A stretch of DNA of 64,000 nucleotides from Sulfuricurvum kujiense DSM 16994 (lineage in GTDB: Bacteria > Campylobacterota > Campylobacteria > Campylobacterales > Sulfurimonadaceae), in NCBI RefSeq assembly GCF_000183725.1, contig NC_014762.1, forward strand, positions 744,001 through 808,000, in the 5' to 3' direction. Below the pieces are notes generated by a model. It searched no databases, was not told where the DNA came from, and saw nothing but the letters and a program-made list of their open reading frames with translations. This document shows, in pieces, positions 30,933-63,616 of the stretch (within the stretch, counting starts at the first letter, position 1; every line of letters starts with the position of its first letter). Position numbers and translations under genes: made by a program.

Positions 30933-31009
30933 TGGCGCAGCGGACGGGACTCGAACCCGCGACCTCCTGCGTGACAGGCAGGCATTCTAACCAACTGAAC
31001 TACCGCTGC
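30933..31009 (-). tRNA. tRNA-Asp(GTC), copy 2
   Basis: The minus strand folds as a cloverleaf: acceptor GCAGCGG/CCGCTGC, discriminator G, encoded CCA, anticodon stem CCTGC/GCAGG with loop CTGTCAC and T-arm with GGTTCGAGTCC. Last gene of the tRNA array; identical to the copy at 31129-31205. Confidence 0.97.
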
Positions 31010-31021
31010 AACCTAAACGAA

Positions 31022-31097
31022 TGGTGGGAATTACAAGACTCGAACTTGTGACATCTACCTTGTAAGGGTAGCGCTCTACCAACTGAGCTAAACTCCC
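31022..31097 (-). tRNA. tRNA-Val(TAC), copy 2
   Basis: Acceptor GGGAGTT/AATTCCC, discriminator A, encoded CCA, anticodon stem CTACC/GGTAG with loop CTTACAA. Identical to the copy at 31218-31293. Confidence 0.97.
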
Positions 31098-31128
31098 GTG
31101 AGTTTAAAAAATAAATCGAAATAACATA

Positions 31129-31205
31129 TGGCGCAGCGGACGGGACTCGAACCCGCGACCTCCTGCGTGACAGGCAGGCATTCTAACCAACTGAACTACC
31201 GCTGC
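31129..31205 (-). tRNA. tRNA-Asp(GTC), copy 1
   Basis: Same cloverleaf and sequence as the copy at 30933-31009, with encoded CCA. Confidence 0.97.
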
Positions 31206-31217
31206 AGCCAAAAATTA

Positions 31218-31293
31218 TGGTGGGAATTACAAGACTCGAACTTGTGACATCTACCTTGTAAGGGTAGCGCTCTACCAACTGAGCTAAACTCCC
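31218..31293 (-). tRNA. tRNA-Val(TAC), copy 1
   Basis: Same sequence as the copy at 31022-31097. Twelve bases separate it from the following tRNA-Asp, the same Val-Asp spacing as in the second pair. Confidence 0.97.
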
Positions 31294-31315
31294 GAAAAAT
31301 ATCTATTCGAACAAA

Positions 31316-31391
31316 TGGCGACCCCTAAAGGATTTGAACCTCTGTTCCTACCATGAAGTGATAGTGTCCTTGGCCACTAGACGAAAGGGTC
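31316..31391 (-). tRNA. tRNA-Glu(TTC)
   Basis: Acceptor GACCCTT pairs with AGGGGTC (one G-T pair), discriminator G, encoded CCA. The anticodon loop ACTTCAT is closed by CTATC/GGTAG. T-arm contains GGTTCAAATCC. Confidence 0.96.
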
Positions 31392-31407
31392 ACTTATATC
31401 AACAATA

Positions 31408-31483
31408 TGGTGTCCCGTGATGGATTCGAACCATCGACCCCCTCATTAAAAGTGAGATGCTCTACCGGCTGAGCTAACGAGAC
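31408..31483 (-). tRNA. tRNA-Lys(TTT)
   Basis: First gene of the array. Acceptor GTCTCGT/ACGGGAC, discriminator A, encoded CCA, anticodon loop CTTTTAA, T-arm GGTTCGAATCC. The operon promoter lies 39 bases upstream. Confidence 0.97.
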
Positions 31484-57167: not shown

Positions 57168-57497
57168 ATGGGTTACCTCCTCTGGTTCGGGATTGTCGCC
57201 CTTGTCTTTGCGCTGATGCATTTTTTTACGGAACTCAGTGCCAAACAAAAGGGAATAATCTCTCTCGTCGTCACACTGTTGGTCATAGGGGCCATCGCCT
57301 ATAATATCCGGAGTGACCGTGATCGCGAACAGGTCAACAGCGTCGTACTGAAATATGAGCAGGGGCAAATGCTGATGTGTCGGGGGACCGAGGTCAACAG
57401 TACCACGTTCGATTACAGTGTCGGGACGCAGAGTTTTGTCGGGAACCGCGGAACGAAATATTTTCAGCAAATCTTTAATGCGCGTGAGTGTCAATGA
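57168..57497 (+). CDS. hypothetical two-helix membrane protein
   Basis: A 109 aa protein with two N-terminal membrane helices (about 3-20 and 33-50) joined by a short SAKQKG loop, then a soluble domain with GQMLMCRGTEVNSTTFDYSVG and the end QQIFNARECQ. It starts three bases after murC and overlaps mutS2 by the ATGA junction. It is probably conserved in Campylobacterota at this place. Function unknown. Confidence 0.75.
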   Translation: MGYLLWFGIVALVFALMHFFTELSAKQKGIISLVVTLLVIGAIAYNIRSDRDREQVNSVVLKYEQGQMLMCRGTEVNSTTFDYSVGTQSFVGNRGTKYFQQIFNARECQ

Positions 57498-59713
57498 CGC
57501 GTCTCTCCTCCAACCTCGCTGAGCTTTTCGGAAAGCTCGATCTTCTTCCTCATATCGCTTCGCTGGAGCAGTTTTTCTCTCGGGAGCAGAATATCGCCAT
57601 CCCCGGAGACCAGGAGCGGCACTTTCGCTATATTCAGGCCCTCGATGCGCTGGAGTTCAAAGCCCCGCCGAAAAGTGTAGGCTTTGAGTCTATCATCAAC
57701 CACCTCAAAAAGCAAGGGGTTTTACGGTTCGAAGAGATTCACGAACTTCTCAAAGTCGTCCGCTATTTTCGTCTGATGCGTAATCATAACTTCGCAGGTC
57801 TTATCGGCGAGTGGATGGAGACGATTATCATCCCCGAACCGTTTGGTGAGATCGATGAGTATTTCGATCATGAGGGGAACTTTATCGAATCGCGTGACGA
57901 AGAACTCCATAAAATCGCACAGCGGATCAAAGCGATCAAAACGGAGATTAATGATTCTATCAAGCGTCTCTTTCACACCCAAAAACTGACCCCCTACCTC
58001 GTCGATACCCAGATCCACTATATCAACGATGAAGAGACGCTGCTGGTGCGCGGCGGGTTTAACCACGTCCTCAAAGGCTCGGTCGTCGGTCGGACGGGGG
58101 CGGGATTCTTTTACGTCGCCCCCGACGCGGTGCTCCGCTCCAAAGAGCAGCTGCGCTATGTGATGCAGGAGCGGGAGACGAAGCTCTATGAATACGCAAA
58201 ACGCTTTTCGGCAAAACTCTCCAACCTCGTCCCTTTCATCGGATTTTGTGATCGCGAGTTCGAGCGGTTTGACCACTATCAGGCACGCGTGCTGTTTGCC
58301 CGTGCACGCGATTTTGCGATCCTCAAACCCCAAAACAACGCCGATGTCGTCCTCGAAGAGTTTTCCCATCCCGCCATCCATAAGCCTAAACCGATCAGCG
58401 TCGATTTTCGCTCCAACCTCCTGATGATCACGGGGGTCAATGCGGGGGGTAAAACGATGCTCCTCAAATCGCTCCTCTCGGCGAGTCTGATGGCGAAATA
58501 TCTCATCCCGATGAAGATCAACCCTCACAAATCGCGGATCGGGAGTTTTAAACGGATCGAAGCGGTCATCGACGATCCCCAAAGCGTCAGCAACGACATC
58601 TCCACCTTTGCCGGGCGGATGGTGCAGTTTAGCCATCTATTTGAACACAAAAGCGCCCTCGTAGGGGTCGATGAGATCGAGCTGGGAACCGATAGCGACG
58701 AGGCGGCGGCACTCTTTGCCATCGTCCTCGATGAGCTGATTAAACGGGGTCAGAAGATCATCGTCACCACCCACCACAAACGGCTCGCGGCATTGATGGC
58801 GGATAGGAGCGATGTCGAGCTGATGGCGGCGCTGTATGACGAAGAGCGTCGCGTCCCGACCTATGAGTTTTTGCAAGGGGTGATCGGAAAGAGCTACGCG
58901 TTTGAGACGGCGTCGCGCTACGGGATCAATCCCGCCATCATTACTCGTGCCAAAGCACTGTACGGCGAGAACCACGAAAAACTGAGCGTCCTCATCGAAC
59001 GGGGAAGCGAGCTGGAGCGGGAGTTGAAGCGGAAAAACCGAGAGGTGGACGAACGGCTCGAAGCCCTCAAAGCGCAGGAAGCGGCACTCAAAGAGGCGCG
59101 TGAACAGCTGCGAAGCGATCTGGATGCGGAGAAAGCGAAGCTTCGCGCAGGGTATGACGAAGCGGTGCGCGAGGCCAAAGAGGCGGCGCGCGGCATGGAC
59201 ATGGCGGCCATCCACCGACAGCTAAACAAAGCGCAGGCGAAACTTCCGAAAGCGGAGCCGATCAAAATCGCCGAACCCGAACCGATCCGCTACGAAGTAG
59301 GGCAGGCGGTGAAATACCGCACTCAGCGCGGTACGGTCGTCAGCGTCGGGGCGAAAGACGCGATGATCGAGGTGGAGGGGATGCGCTTACGGGTCAAACT
59401 GAGTGACCTTAAACCGAGCGGCAATCTCCCGAAAAAGCCGAAGGTCACCGTCACCTCTCAAATCGATCAAAAAAGCGGTCTCAAACTCGATCTTCATGGA
59501 CTTCGAGGGGAAGAGTCATGCGAGCGGATGGATAAATTTCTCTCTGATGCACTCTTGCAGGGATTTGATGAGGTGATTATCTATCACGGGATCGGGACGG
59601 GGAAACTGGCCTACGCCGTCAAAGAGTTTCTAAAAGAGCACCCGAGTGTCAAAAGCTTTAGTGATGCGCCACAACATTTGGGTGGATTTGGGGCGAAAGT
59701 GGTGAGGCTCTAA
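57494..59713 (+). CDS. mutS2: MutS2 family ATPase with Smr domain
   Basis: MutS2 proteins bind branched DNA or collided ribosomes and in Campylobacterota limit homologous recombination and repair oxidised DNA. I use ATG 57494 (overlap with the previous stop) over GTG 57488. The 739 aa lack the MutS mismatch domain I. The Walker A motif GVNAGGKT is at 314-321, followed by the signature DEIELGTDSDEA. A long coiled coil (about 490-570), a KOW-like VGQAVKYRTQRG segment and the C-terminal Smr nuclease domain (LDLHGLRG...IYHGIGTGKL) complete it. Full length. Confidence 0.95.
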   Translation: MTRLSSNLAELFGKLDLLPHIASLEQFFSREQNIAIPGDQERHFRYIQALDALEFKAPPKSVGFESIINHLKKQGVLRFEEIHELLKVVRYFRLMRNHNFAGLIGEWMETIIIPEPFGEIDEYFDHEGNFIESRDEELHKIAQRIKAIKTEINDSIKRLFHTQKLTPYLVDTQIHYINDEETLLVRGGFNHVLKGSVVGRTGAGFFYVAPDAVLRSKEQLRYVMQERETKLYEYAKRFSAKLSNLVPFIGFCDREFERFDHYQARVLFARARDFAILKPQNNADVVLEEFSHPAIHKPKPISVDFRSNLLMITGVNAGGKTMLLKSLLSASLMAKYLIPMKINPHKSRIGSFKRIEAVIDDPQSVSNDISTFAGRMVQFSHLFEHKSALVGVDEIELGTDSDEAAALFAIVLDELIKRGQKIIVTTHHKRLAALMADRSDVELMAALYDEERRVPTYEFLQGVIGKSYAFETASRYGINPAIITRAKALYGENHEKLSVLIERGSELERELKRKNREVDERLEALKAQEAALKEAREQLRSDLDAEKAKLRAGYDEAVREAKEAARGMDMAAIHRQLNKAQAKLPKAEPIKIAEPEPIRYEVGQAVKYRTQRGTVVSVGAKDAMIEVEGMRLRVKLSDLKPSGNLPKKPKVTVTSQIDQKSGLKLDLHGLRGEESCERMDKFLSDALLQGFDEVIIYHGIGTGKLAYAVKEFLKEHPSVKSFSDAPQHLGGFGAKVVRL

Positions 59714-59743
59714 AAGATCTCTTTTAGTAATGAGGATAATCAT

Positions 59744-60742
59744 ATGGCAATAAGAATATTTCAAAATGATGAAAAGATTTTATTGAGATTTGTCGCGTTT
59801 TCTTCATTCCCAATAAAAGGTTCTTACCGTTATAAAGATGTGCTTCAAATAATGTCACTACCTGACGAAGCGCCAAAGCCACAATATATAATGGGTGCGC
59901 TGCACCCTCTAATTATTGAGTATAGATATGACACCATTGATGAAGAAAATGTAGCAAGTATTGCAACTGATAGCTTTGATGAGAGAATTCTTGAATCACA
60001 ATATGCTTTTACAAAGCAGGATGAAATACTGTGTGTATTATCTGTAATTACAAAATATCTTATTACCAAGGACGAAAACGGTAAAAGATGGGTTTTATGT
60101 GATAAAGATGAGGACTGGATTTCTGTTGAACGCGGGGTAGGTTATTTCTGGACGGGGATGAGTCAATTCGGTGCTGAACTGACAGATATTGATACTGCAA
60201 GTATTCCTGAGATTCATTATGAACAATATTACGGTAATGATGCATTTTTGGGTGAGTCATTTAAGCTCAGTGACTCTACTTCTTCGCTTTTGGATAAATA
60301 CTTTTCATTAGATGAAGCTAAGAAAGAAGCATTTTTATCTGCATGTGTTTTGTTTGAACGTTCATCCCGTACTTGGGTAATATCCCATAGTCTTGCATAT
60401 ATTGGTTTTATTTCAAGTATTGAAGCTCTAATCGAATACGAGAACAAGGATGTAAAAACCGAGAAGTGTTCTGATCCTGATTGTGGTCAACCGAAATATA
60501 AAGTAAGGCAAAAATTTCTCGCATTTGCAAGAGACTATGGTAATGATAGTCGCGAGTTTAAAAAGTATGCGGACAAATTATATAATCGGCGATCACAAAT
60601 TGGTCATGTTGGAAAACTACTTTCTCATGATTTGGCAGGGAAAATTTCTGGCCCTGTTGTAGAAATGAATGATGGAATGGAATTAAGAAATTTACAGCGT
60701 GTTGTAAGAATTATGATGATTAATTGGCTTACTAAGGTTTAG
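59744..60742 (+). CDS. hypothetical protein with an ApeA-like HEPN C-terminal domain
   Basis: A 332 aa cytosolic protein, more AT-rich than its neighbours. The C-terminal part has the HEPN signature: a helix with SSIEALIEY (224-232), then KLYNRRSQIGHVG with R283-x4-H288 (the Rx4-6H RNase motif). A C242-x4-C247 pair before it may bind a metal. The N-terminal 180 residues are not recognised. ApeA-like HEPN proteins are found in phage defence, where they cleave RNA. No partner gene is next to it. The domain call is from motif and helix pattern, not a database. Confidence 0.65.
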   Translation: MAIRIFQNDEKILLRFVAFSSFPIKGSYRYKDVLQIMSLPDEAPKPQYIMGALHPLIIEYRYDTIDEENVASIATDSFDERILESQYAFTKQDEILCVLSVITKYLITKDENGKRWVLCDKDEDWISVERGVGYFWTGMSQFGAELTDIDTASIPEIHYEQYYGNDAFLGESFKLSDSTSSLLDKYFSLDEAKKEAFLSACVLFERSSRTWVISHSLAYIGFISSIEALIEYENKDVKTEKCSDPDCGQPKYKVRQKFLAFARDYGNDSREFKKYADKLYNRRSQIGHVGKLLSHDLAGKISGPVVEMNDGMELRNLQRVVRIMMINWLTKV

Positions 60743-60782
60743 ATAATTTATGAAACTGTTTAACTATTAGTCAAGGTTAGAT

Positions 60783-60841
60783 ATGAAAAAAGTCCTAATC
60801 CTTAGCGGTGCAGGGATCAGCGCCGAAAGCGGAATCCGCAT
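60783..60841 (+). pseudogene. truncated 5' end of a second cobB-like sirtuin gene
   Basis: About 58 bases match the start of the intact cobB at 62857 with only four differences, all at third codon positions and synonymous. The similarity stops after GIRI (residue 19), where a palindromic repeat begins; the frame then ends at TAG within that repeat. The upstream bases are not shared with the intact gene. It is a remnant and no product is expected. Confidence 0.85.
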
Positions 60842-60852
60842 CTTTCCCCTCG

Positions 60853-60874: not shown

Positions 60875-61170
60875 TGCATACTCTCATCTCATTAAAACCT
60901 TTGTCACTTTTTTTGTTTCAGCAAAAGCTTCTGTACTTTTCTGTTTAGCTGAAAAGTACCAAAAGAACATACCGTGATCCAAGAACGCTCGCGTGACTCC
61001 TTGCACTTCTGCACCGCACTCGGCTCTAGGAGTTAGATCGTGGAGATTTTGATTTTATCTCTTTTCGCATTCCGCGAAAATCATTTCCATCCAATTGTTT
61101 AGCCCTCACACCATACCTAGAGCAATGACACTTTTTTTTCTTTACTAAAAAGAAAAGGATATTTAATTTT
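60875..61170. other. non-coding decayed region in the accessory patch
   Basis: No convincing gene on either strand. It has an inverted repeat GTACTTTTC/GAAAAGTAC at 60934-60960 and a CTTTTTTTTCTTT/AAAAAGAAAAG pair at about 61128-61157, both of the sort seen in decayed repeats around mobile DNA. An 89-residue minus-strand frame at 61026-61295 spans the antitoxin promoter and start and shows no known features. Confidence 0.5.
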
Positions 61171-61208: not shown

Positions 61209-61514
61209 ATGGTAGCCTATAAATCCAACGAAATGATGAGTTCGACCGATGTCGCGAAAAACTTCGGCGCAGTTCTCTCCAAACTCGCGAACCACGAAGT
61301 CGATAAAATTTGTGTTTTGCGAAACAACAAACCTGAAGCGGTAGTGTTAAGCGCACTCGAATACGAACAGCTACGCGATTATCGTCATTGGAATACGATG
61401 AGCGAAAAAGAGTATCTTCAAAAATCGCATGAGAGTATCGATAGTTCACGGAACTATTCAATAGAAGAAGTAGATGCCTATCTCGAACGGATCATCGACT
61501 CGTATGAAAGTTAG
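61209..61514 (+). CDS. type II antitoxin, Phd/YefM family
   Basis: A 101 aa protein with the Phd/YefM DNA-binding fold: KSNEMMSSTDVAKNFGAVLSKL (5-26), then KICVLRNNKPEAVVLSALEYEQL (34-56). The C-terminal tail (about 60-101) should wrap around the toxin. It has a good ribosome site and overlaps the toxin gene by 11 bases, so the pair is coupled with antitoxin first. Confidence 0.88.
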   Translation: MVAYKSNEMMSSTDVAKNFGAVLSKLANHEVDKICVLRNNKPEAVVLSALEYEQLRDYRHWNTMSEKEYLQKSHESIDSSRNYSIEEVDAYLERIIDSYES

Positions 61515-61794
61515 AATTCTTCCCTCTTTTATCGCCAAACTGCAGTTTGTTTTGGAAAAGATTGCCGAGGATAAAAAAAGCGCGGCACACACATTTCGCC
61601 GTGAGATTTTGCGTGAGTGTTATAGTCTCAGCGATTTTCCTTATCGATGCCGTCGCTCGATCCATTATAACGACGATAACATCCGCGATCTAATTTTTAA
61701 GGGTTGGACAGTGATATATAAAATCCAAGATGATGAAATAAAAGTATTTGCATTGACAAAATACGAAGATTATAAAGACGAGAGTGATCAATAA
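61504..61794 (+). CDS. type II toxin, RelE/ParE superfamily
   Basis: A 96 aa protein from ATG 61504 (MKVRILPSFIAKL) inside the antitoxin gene. The RelE/ParE pattern is visible: VRILPSFIAKLQFVLEKIAED, a helix-rich first half, then the strand-rich end IRDLIFKGWTVIYKIQDDEIKVFALTKYEDY. RelE members cleave mRNA on the ribosome and ParE members poison gyrase; the sequence does not decide between them. A frame starting at 61474 in the antitoxin is not supported. Confidence 0.85.
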   Translation: MKVRILPSFIAKLQFVLEKIAEDKKSAAHTFRREILRECYSLSDFPYRCRRSIHYNDDNIRDLIFKGWTVIYKIQDDEIKVFALTKYEDYKDESDQ

Positions 61795-62856: not shown

Positions 62857-63552
62857 ATGAAAAAAGTCCTAATCCTTAGCGGTGCGGGGATCAGCGCCGA
62901 GAGCGGTATTCGCACATTCCGTGATACGAATGGACTATGGGAAGAATACGACGTGATGGAAGTGTGCTCGCTCACAGGGTTCGAGCGTAATCCCAAACTG
63001 GTCGCCGATTTTTACGATGCCCGCCGTCGCGACCTGCATGACAAACTCCCCAATGCCGCCCACGAGATGATCGCCCGCCTCAAACAGCATTACCCCGATC
63101 AGATCGAAGTACTGACCCAAAACGTCGACGATCTGTTCGAGCGTGCGGGGTGTCCCGATGTAATCCATCTGCACGGCACCCTCACCGATCTGCGGTGCGA
63201 GGAGTGCGGATGGGTTTACGAGATCGGATATGAGTCGCAGGAGGGATCGACGTGTCCGTCGTGCGAGAGTGATAACATCCGCCATAACGTCGTGATGTTC
63301 GGGGAAGAGGCACCGATGTACGCAGAACTTCAACGAGCAATCGAAGAGTGTGATTTGTTTGTCGTCATAGGTTCAAGCGGTCAGGTGATCAATACGGCGT
63401 GGATCGCTCAATGGTTTGAACACTCGATCCTCAATAACCTCGAATCCGATGATATGCTCGATCCGTTTTTCAAGACCCTCTACATCGAAAAAGCAACCAC
63501 CGCTGCGCCGAAGATCGAGGCGGAAATCGAGTATTTTCTGGCTTTACAATAG
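62857..63552 (+). CDS. cobB: NAD-dependent protein deacylase (sirtuin)
   Basis: Removes acyl groups from lysines using NAD+. The 231 aa are full length for bacterial sirtuins. Motifs: GAGISAESGIRTFRD (9-23), TQNVDDLFERAG, the catalytic His in HLHGTL, and a zinc site of two CxxC pairs (CEEC...CPSC). Y53 and R56 in FYDARR match the Tyr-x-x-Arg signature that lets SIRT5-class enzymes and CobB take succinyl and malonyl groups, so it is likely a desuccinylase as well. TAAGGAG gives the ribosome site. Confidence 0.93.
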   Translation: MKKVLILSGAGISAESGIRTFRDTNGLWEEYDVMEVCSLTGFERNPKLVADFYDARRRDLHDKLPNAAHEMIARLKQHYPDQIEVLTQNVDDLFERAGCPDVIHLHGTLTDLRCEECGWVYEIGYESQEGSTCPSCESDNIRHNVVMFGEEAPMYAELQRAIEECDLFVVIGSSGQVINTAWIAQWFEHSILNNLESDDMLDPFFKTLYIEKATTAAPKIEAEIEYFLALQ

Positions 63553-63616
63553 AATCTGTAAAATTAGTTAATTTTATGTTATAGTAAAGCAGTAATTTTT
63601 GAAAAAAGGGATCATA

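Follow-up and report, generated by a model that had tools for sequence, protein, structure and literature searches.

A single gene directly downstream of mutS2 in Sulfuricurvum probably encodes a HEPN RNase that works on its own and carries its regulatory domain at the N-terminus; its RNase activity and its place in phage defence are proposed by analogy with characterized HEPN proteins. The gene lies in a stretch of 64,000 nucleotides (hereafter the window) from a Sulfuricurvum genome of 2.8 Mb, and its family, rare and of scattered occurrence, may serve in protection against viruses. HEPN RNases are common to CRISPR, abortive infection, and toxin systems, and for few of those that consist of one protein is it known how infection is sensed. 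A compact protein encoded by one gene, with an N-terminal domain that is confidently modelled yet unassigned, provides a tractable route to a new trigger. More speculatively, and with appreciable doubt, the family could represent an undescribed group of one-gene anti-phage RNases from about eight phyla, in which a new N-terminal sensor, possibly with a helix-grip/START-like pocket, gates a zinc-knuckled HEPN domain, and for which Sulfuricurvum maintains slots that swap genes without a recognised integrase. Such slots between conserved genes also offer a way to further accessory and defence genes in Sulfuricurvum, outside the classical defence islands.

The gene and its family

The ORF (59744–60742, +) has an ATG start and encodes 332 aa. 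Its start is separated from the mutS2 stop codon by 30 bp, with a GAGG sequence situated 8 bases before the ATG. The G+C content of the gene is 35.2% and its GC3 is 25.5%, compared with 54.4% and 66.3% for mutS2 and a G+C of 44.3% for the window, in agreement with the original prediction of an AT-rich 332-aa gene after mutS2. Between the window gene and the copy in a second Sulfuricurvum genome (G029), dN/dS is 0.26 (0.21 for the C-terminal part), five times higher than the 0.05 of mutS2; a more distant pair of relatives, located at a nif site in G020 and G027, gives 0.085. Simultaneously, dS between the window genome and G029 is 0.44 for the HEPN gene vs 0.82 for mutS2, as expected if the gene spread between strains, and the base composition could contribute to this difference. 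By these comparisons, the ORF is a real gene on which purifying selection acts. A promoter scan at the gene found five sites against a shuffle mean of 5.6, no excess, and four terminator-like sites were found against a shuffle mean of 1.4, all located within the gene itself.

Four of 60 related genomes carry the gene, including that of the window (G000, G029, G027, and G020). The G029 copy is 79% identical to the window protein and occupies the same position after mutS2. The copies in G027 and G020, both Sulfuricurvum, are 33 and 35% identical and lie between nifE and nifN (names that represent a reading of the sequences), with one further gene in the same interval of G027. A contig scan of the species collection with the protein alone gave no relative; a five-row profile gave ten loci there, one of which repeats G020 (L009 is the same record as G020, titled Sulfuricurvum, and is also the same as L004). 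One more relative was found on a Pantoea soli plasmid and two more by phylum-wide searches. The family alignment thus refers to 16 proteins, the window's included, leaving out G798 and G863, which match the family in the HEPN part alone (hhalign 93.9 and 95.3%), and a second piece from G440 of 29 positions at a contig end.

The sources nominally span eight phyla, including Campylobacterota, Pseudomonadota, Bacteroidota, Chlorobiota, Elusimicrobiota, Nitrospirota, Fidelibacterota, and Acidobacteriota, and seven of the nine new loci found by the profile come from MAGs, where misbinning of contigs is possible; the Pseudomonas, Stenotrophobium, and Pantoea plasmid copies are not from MAGs. In the gene's own phylum, five of 397 genomes matched and four were accepted, the fifth match (G425, 51 aa with five stops) being set aside as chance. 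The phyla of G441 and G439 gave three of 398 and three of 296 genomes, respectively, each including the centre genome and one HEPN-only match. Across the genomes searched, the family is therefore described here as rare and scattered. No relative was found in viral contigs with two profiles, nor in phage records by tblastn.

In the family tree, the five members with an extra N-terminal stretch of 74–94 residues (L013, L014, L016, L018, and L100) are grouped with a support of 95/93. The nif-site pair groups with the Chlorobiaceae, Robiginitomaculum, and Pseudomonas relatives (99/98), apart from the window pair (100/100), in a midpoint-rooted tree with weak deeper forks (59/60). Most simply, these sequences suggest that Sulfuricurvum acquired the gene twice, at two places.

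The window protein receives no name from Pfam, NCBIfam, or PADLOC. Other family members show weak PADLOC matches, in two cases to DzbB (best E 0.0014) and in a single case to PDC-S06 (E 0.035), and PHROGs gives weak matches alone, to families of unknown function or to one DNA methyltransferase (best E 0.0038). Broad-term literature searches, which could not prove an absence, returned no name for the family among the matches listed. The family is apparently unnamed.

Predicted HEPN and N-terminal domains

According to PMC3710099, HEPN domains carry an Rx4-6H motif at the end of helix 3 and an acidic residue within helix 2, and helices 2 and 3 are separated by an insert. The AlphaFold2 model of the full window protein, built from 13 sequences, has a pLDDT of 82.1 and a pTM of 0.83. 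Its C-terminal part (residues 190–332; 60311–60739, +) contains predicted helices 191–210, 215–233, 270–289, and 304–331, with an insert (residues 234–269) that includes a short helix (254–265). R283 and H288 are situated at the end of helix 3, E227 is located in helix 2, and the insert lies between helices 2 and 3, corresponding to the HEPN layout.

A comparison of the model with the PDB by VIA places HEPN proteins at the top. The best 17 entries are all HEPN, from about nine different proteins among which Csm6 and HepT recur, with Z of 10.2–7.3 over model residues 190–332; they include 1ufb and 7bxo, which we take to be HEPN proteins and whose titles do not contain the term. Representative matches are 2hsb (Z 10.2, rmsd 3.1 over 110), Csm6 8jh1 (Z 9.5, rmsd 5.1 over 124), HepT 5yep (Z 9.0, rmsd 3.6 over 114), and AbiV 9bj7 (Z 8.4, rmsd 3.1 over 106). 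Further down, beginning with metavinculin (rank 19, Z 6.3), unrelated bundles are mixed with more HEPN entries, among them 3c8g, 5yjc, and RnlA 6y2p, and for helical bundles a Z below about 13 may reflect a common arrangement. No ApeA entry was recognised among the rows listed, a result that carries no weight against a relation to ApeA. In Foldseek, the five best rows are Csm6 chains of 6tug, with E of 0.063–0.55 and probabilities of 0.96–0.54, none reaching E 0.001. The window protein has no sequence-profile match to any HEPN model, a BFVD fold search with the model gave nothing meaningful, and a sequence search of solved structures gave no meaningful match. Residues 190–332 are thus predicted, on the basis of the model, to form a HEPN domain, in line with the HEPN-type protein of the original prediction.

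The conserved residues are consistent with such a fold. Q35, I36, P55, W116, E227, C242, C247, R283, S284, and H288 are shared without exception by all 16 proteins of the alignment. The window protein contains exactly one Rx4H match, R283-S-Q-I-G-H288 (60590–60607, +), the predicted RNase active-site motif at the end of helix 270–289; the invariant acidic residue E227 (60422–60424, +) lies in helix 215–233, and the Cys pair C242/C247 (60467–60484, +) lies within the insert. Both the Rx4H motif and the preceding Cys pair had been noticed in the sequence, and a lack of R283/H288 conservation among homologues had been named as the result that would tell against a HEPN assignment; that result did not occur, and with the motif and the Cys pair kept throughout, more than chance is indicated. 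The acidic residue is situated outside an Ex3[KR] motif (E227-A-L-I-E), and S284 follows the arginine; Ex3[KR] and an N, D, or H after the arginine are typical of HEPN proteins, not obligatory, according to PMC3710099. The Cys pair is spaced as CxxC in 15 of the 16 proteins and as Cx4C in the window protein alone, and L015 and L017 carry a second CxxC. These cysteines suggest a zinc ribbon or knuckle in the HEPN insert.

The invariant motif also bears on the question of catalysis. Some HEPN families have lost the catalytic motif (PMC3710099), and a non-catalytic or housekeeping RNA-binding HEPN protein, for example an RNA-processing or ligand-binding factor, would be conceivable on that ground; it is improbable here, as the motif is retained in every aligned protein, and the very patchy presence of the gene in related genomes (4/60) and in its phylum (4 accepted of 5/397) is ill-suited to a housekeeping role. 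Even less probable, to the point of being hardly credible, is a type III CRISPR ancillary effector of the Csm6 type activated by cyclic oligoadenylate. Csm6 chains are the best Foldseek matches, but the match is confined to residues 190–332, no CARF-type row occurs among the N-terminal matches listed, and no cas gene was recognised among the ORFs of 54–64 kb; the Cas10 model PF22335 was non-discriminating, matching four of four genomes at 6 to 18 places each, E. coli also among its matches.

The N-terminal domain (residues 1–189; 59744–60310, +), modelled alone by AlphaFold2, has a pLDDT of 82.4 and a pTM of 0.79, and consists of beta strands and a long helix (residues 80–103). It contains the invariant Q35, I36, P55, and W116, and R29 and D32 are nearly so. 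In VIA against the PDB, START domains lead the matches (6l1m, Z 4.1, rmsd 3.8 over 85; 3p0l, 3.6; 5i9j, 3.6), and none of 1000 chains reached a Z of at least 5. A START-domain identity was set aside, as a Z of 4.1 is too weak and gives a hint at most. The N-terminal half, described as unrecognised from the sequence, thus keeps that description in the form of a confident model with no clear PDB fold match. It is probably a regulatory domain and is proposed as the sensor of the protein.

Variable slots and gene neighbours

The HEPN gene is located in the interval between mutS2 (57488–59713, +; identified by Pfam and by comparison across genomes), the left border, and ligA, a 676-aa ORF by reading of the sequence, which begins at approximately 64376, just beyond the window; the interval starts at 59714. 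Directly after the HEPN gene lies a 66-bp sirtuin 5' remnant (60782–60847, +) that is 91% identical to the start of an intact SIR2-family gene (62857–63552, +; Pfam) in the same interval, so that the truncated sirtuin noticed downstream is real, though small. A dispersed repeat copy (60932–61050, +) was detected by genome self-comparison, and 17 of 23 other matching genome rows fall in it. A pair of Phd/YefM-like (29.4 bits, cut-off 29.8) and ParE (34.4 bits, cut-off 23) genes follows at 61209–61794 (+). One further copy of the repeat was observed just beyond the window end in the same orientation (G000:C4:808036-808121).

The region next to mutS2 was read in 22 genomes (L006, L116–L136), of 32 with a mutS2 match of at least 690 of 741 residues. 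In the 19 of these 22 Sulfuricurvum genomes with both borders placed, the mutS2–ligA interval ranges from 337 to 6828 bp with varying content. A total of 118 ORFs of at least 70 aa, called mechanically and some surely spurious, fall into 51 similarity groups, 33 of which were seen once. A Phd-type group and a ParE-type group are each present at 10 slot loci; among the single genes are Fic, HNH_2, DUF2971, and, below the cut-off, a DUF5677-like gene. The HEPN gene takes the first slot position in two of the 22 genomes, and slot cargo often starts at, or tens of bases from, the mutS2 stop codon. Between G000 and G029, the detected homology is lost at the HEPN stop codon and reappears at 63571.

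In addition, extra pieces of the mutS2 3' end exist elsewhere, mostly nearby, in G035, G033, G013, G002, and G009. In one of these genomes (L122 in G035), an ORF at 1299–1805 after reverse complement encodes 168 aa composed of the first 98 residues of a sirtuin and the last 71 residues of MutS2. Separately, an HNH-like gene of 104 aa (17.8 bits, cut-off 21.4) takes up the entire slot in G379 (L118:524-838) and occurs in four loci.

In the Sulfuricurvum genomes read, the mutS2–ligA interval thus serves as a slot for a changing set of genes. A decayed integration site had been proposed in its place; however, the changing slot content, the sirtuin fragment, and the dispersed repeat point to repeated replacement by recombination, against one decayed integration site, and the nearest tRNA ends at 31483. 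No integrase or transposase was recognised among the ORFs listed for 54–64 kb, six of them scanned against Pfam. Site-specific integration into mutS2 is likewise not proposed, as no integrase was recognised among the slot ORFs inspected by eye (10 of 51 groups scanned). The tRNA in question belongs to a six-tRNA cluster (30933–31483, −) in the order Asp-Val-Asp-Val-Glu-Lys, with a tandem Asp-Val repeat.

The nifE–nifN interval was compared at 26 loci (L137–L162). It measures 5 bp in three and 592–1387 bp in nine, including G020; in the remaining 14, nifE lies beyond the 1.5-kb flank or the contig. Its content includes HepT-MNT in G029 and PIN-like frames, by reading of the sequence, in G000 and G024. 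As far as these loci indicate, nifE–nifN is a second variable slot, in which a distant HEPN relative is kept in two other Sulfuricurvum genomes.

The neighbours of the whole family were compared as well. The 5-kb surroundings of 14 independent copies contain 127 ORFs of at least 60 aa; among these, one inter-locus similar pair was found at E 0.001, and it resembles sensor-kinase parts by reading of the sequence. With no recognisable shared partner gene among the 14 loci, the gene seems to act alone, noting that four loci (L010, L011, L014, and L104) end within approximately 1.2 kb downstream of the gene, so that a partner there might have escaped notice. Eight of the 14 loci have defence, toxin, or mobile genes nearby, some with TA or mobile genes alone, a raw count among the neighbours scanned. 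The Pantoea plasmid copy is accompanied by an Mrr-type nuclease, VapBC, AAA_13, and an Abi family gene, and the Elusimicrobia copy by HsdM, HsdS, Schlafen AlbA_2, and HsdR. The Chlorobiaceae copy adjoins AAA_15/DUF3696 and RNA ligase genes; the Robiginitomaculum copy has a conjugation coupling protein nearby, with AbiEii 4.8 kb away. A ParE-type toxin is found in Bryobacteraceae, a mutator transposase in Pseudomonas, and an integrase fragment just below the cut-off in G528; the window gene has the Phd-like/ParE pair. No defence or mobile gene was found among the neighbours scanned at the nif site, L014, L015, L016, L017, and L105. The proposal of a self-contained defence gene is supported in its first part, the gene having no recognisable conserved partner, and partially in its second; association with defence genes is clear for the Pantoea plasmid and Elusimicrobia, and none was seen in six of the 14 loci as far as examined.

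These neighbours could also be read in terms of growth control, in which the protein would be a stress toxin (a solitary mRNA interferase) restrained by an unlinked antitoxin or by its own N-terminus, with no phage role. The slot neighbours of the window gene, a toxin–antitoxin pair and other small genes, fit this reading, as do the HepT-MNT and PIN-like frames that the nif slot holds in other genomes. Nevertheless, it is considered rather unlikely, given the lack of a recognisable shared partner gene and the restriction, Abi-type, or AAA_15/RNA-ligase genes at four (L005, L010, L011, and L013) of eight informative loci.

Proposed mode of action and comparison with known systems

A one-gene RNase triggered by infection or stress, in the manner of Tha or ApeA, is the most likely function by analogy, with RNase activity and phage defence following from the same comparison. 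HEPN proteins form homodimers (PMC13405049), and HEPN RNase chemistry is metal-independent (PMC3710099). In the proposed mechanism, a HEPN dimer would pair the R283/H288 sites to form a metal-independent RNase centre, assisted by S284 and E227, and the two cysteines of the insert would hold a small zinc knuckle, thereby stabilising this part. Until the arrival of an infection-derived signal, the RNase would be restrained by the N-terminal domain; the signal could be a small molecule or, as in the case of Tha, a protein of the phage. Cellular and phage RNA would then be cut, so that the cell is arrested and the phage stopped. The gene itself would move alone and settle in slots bordered by conserved genes, alongside toxin–antitoxin pairs and further small genes. 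The dimer, the RNase activity, the zinc, the trigger, and the defence role are what we infer from related proteins.

In the case of ApeA, a HEPN defence system (PMC10952713, PMC7699616) whose activation by deoxydinucleotides is the subject of a preprint title cited in PMC13405049, the likeness lies in the arrangement of a beta-strand-rich N-terminal domain followed by a C-terminal HEPN domain and in a single-gene defence role, putative in the window protein, as described for ApeA in PMC3710099 and PMC10952713. The difference is that the window protein has neither ApeA Pfam domain. PF18739 (HEPN_Apea) gives no match in the window protein, nor in its own genome even at E 0.1, and PF18862 (ApeA_NTD1) gives none in the window protein and is absent from the list of 13 families obtained with 14 members. 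As a positive comparison, a bona fide ApeA with ApeA_NTD1 and HEPN_Apea, observed in another Sulfuricurvum genome (G026, L077:1435-2853, −), scores 46.5 bits with PF18739 and 1.3e-13 with ApeA_NTD1.

If the protein were a divergent ApeA whose N-terminal domain has been shortened, this would account for sub-threshold PF18739 matches in one of the 14 members (E 0.047) and in L100 (E 0.23), and for the hhalign alignment of the 16-row family with seven ApeA-type proteins, in which the Rx4H motifs and a preceding YF.L stretch are paired (E 0.014). The probability of that alignment is 3.1%, obtained with a small and uneven ApeA profile (seven rows, 18–36% identity to the first row) that may be underpowered. 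Furthermore, the N-terminal half has approximately 189 residues compared with approximately 300 for ApeA-NTD1 as described in PMC3710099. Membership is thus unlikely, and the ApeA-like assignment of the original prediction is not retained; the window protein may work like the ApeA/Tha class, by analogy and without demonstrated ApeA membership. A Cys pair in the HEPN insert and a YRYxDxFQI motif are seen in the present family, ApeA being compared by the hhalign alignment alone.

Tha, the tail-activated HEPN anti-phage protein of S. aureus prophages (PMC11087260), is likened to the window protein by description, not by sequence. It is reported there as a single protein of 301 aa in which an N-terminal domain cannot be discerned and the C-terminal HEPN part carries the Rx4H motif R265NSIMH270, with HepT 5yep and Csm6 5yjc as DALI neighbours; both entries are also VIA rows of the window protein. 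However, Tha is prophage-borne and accompanied by the Ith inhibitor gene, and its N-terminal part has a pLDDT below 50 (PMC11087260), whereas the window gene is chromosomal with no partner recognised and its N-terminal part is confidently modelled.

Compared with Csm6/Csx1, the window protein shares a predicted HEPN RNase domain, Csm6 being its best Foldseek match, and shows no sign of a CARF domain among the N-terminal matches listed, nor of a CRISPR context among the ORFs of 54–64 kb. The HEPN fold is likewise common to the HEPN-MNT system (HepT-MntA; 5yep, Z 9.0), but the genes adjacent to the window gene are mutS2 and the Phd-like/ParE pair by Pfam, with no nucleotidyltransferase, and the window protein is much longer. 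AbiV and Abi_2 (AbiD/F) also possess the HEPN fold (AbiV, Z 8.4), and an Abi_2-like gene (23.2 bits, cut-off 25.6) adjoins the Pantoea relative; in contrast, the window protein has no Pfam AbiV or Abi_2 match, and hhalign against that one Pantoea neighbour gives a probability of 0.1%.
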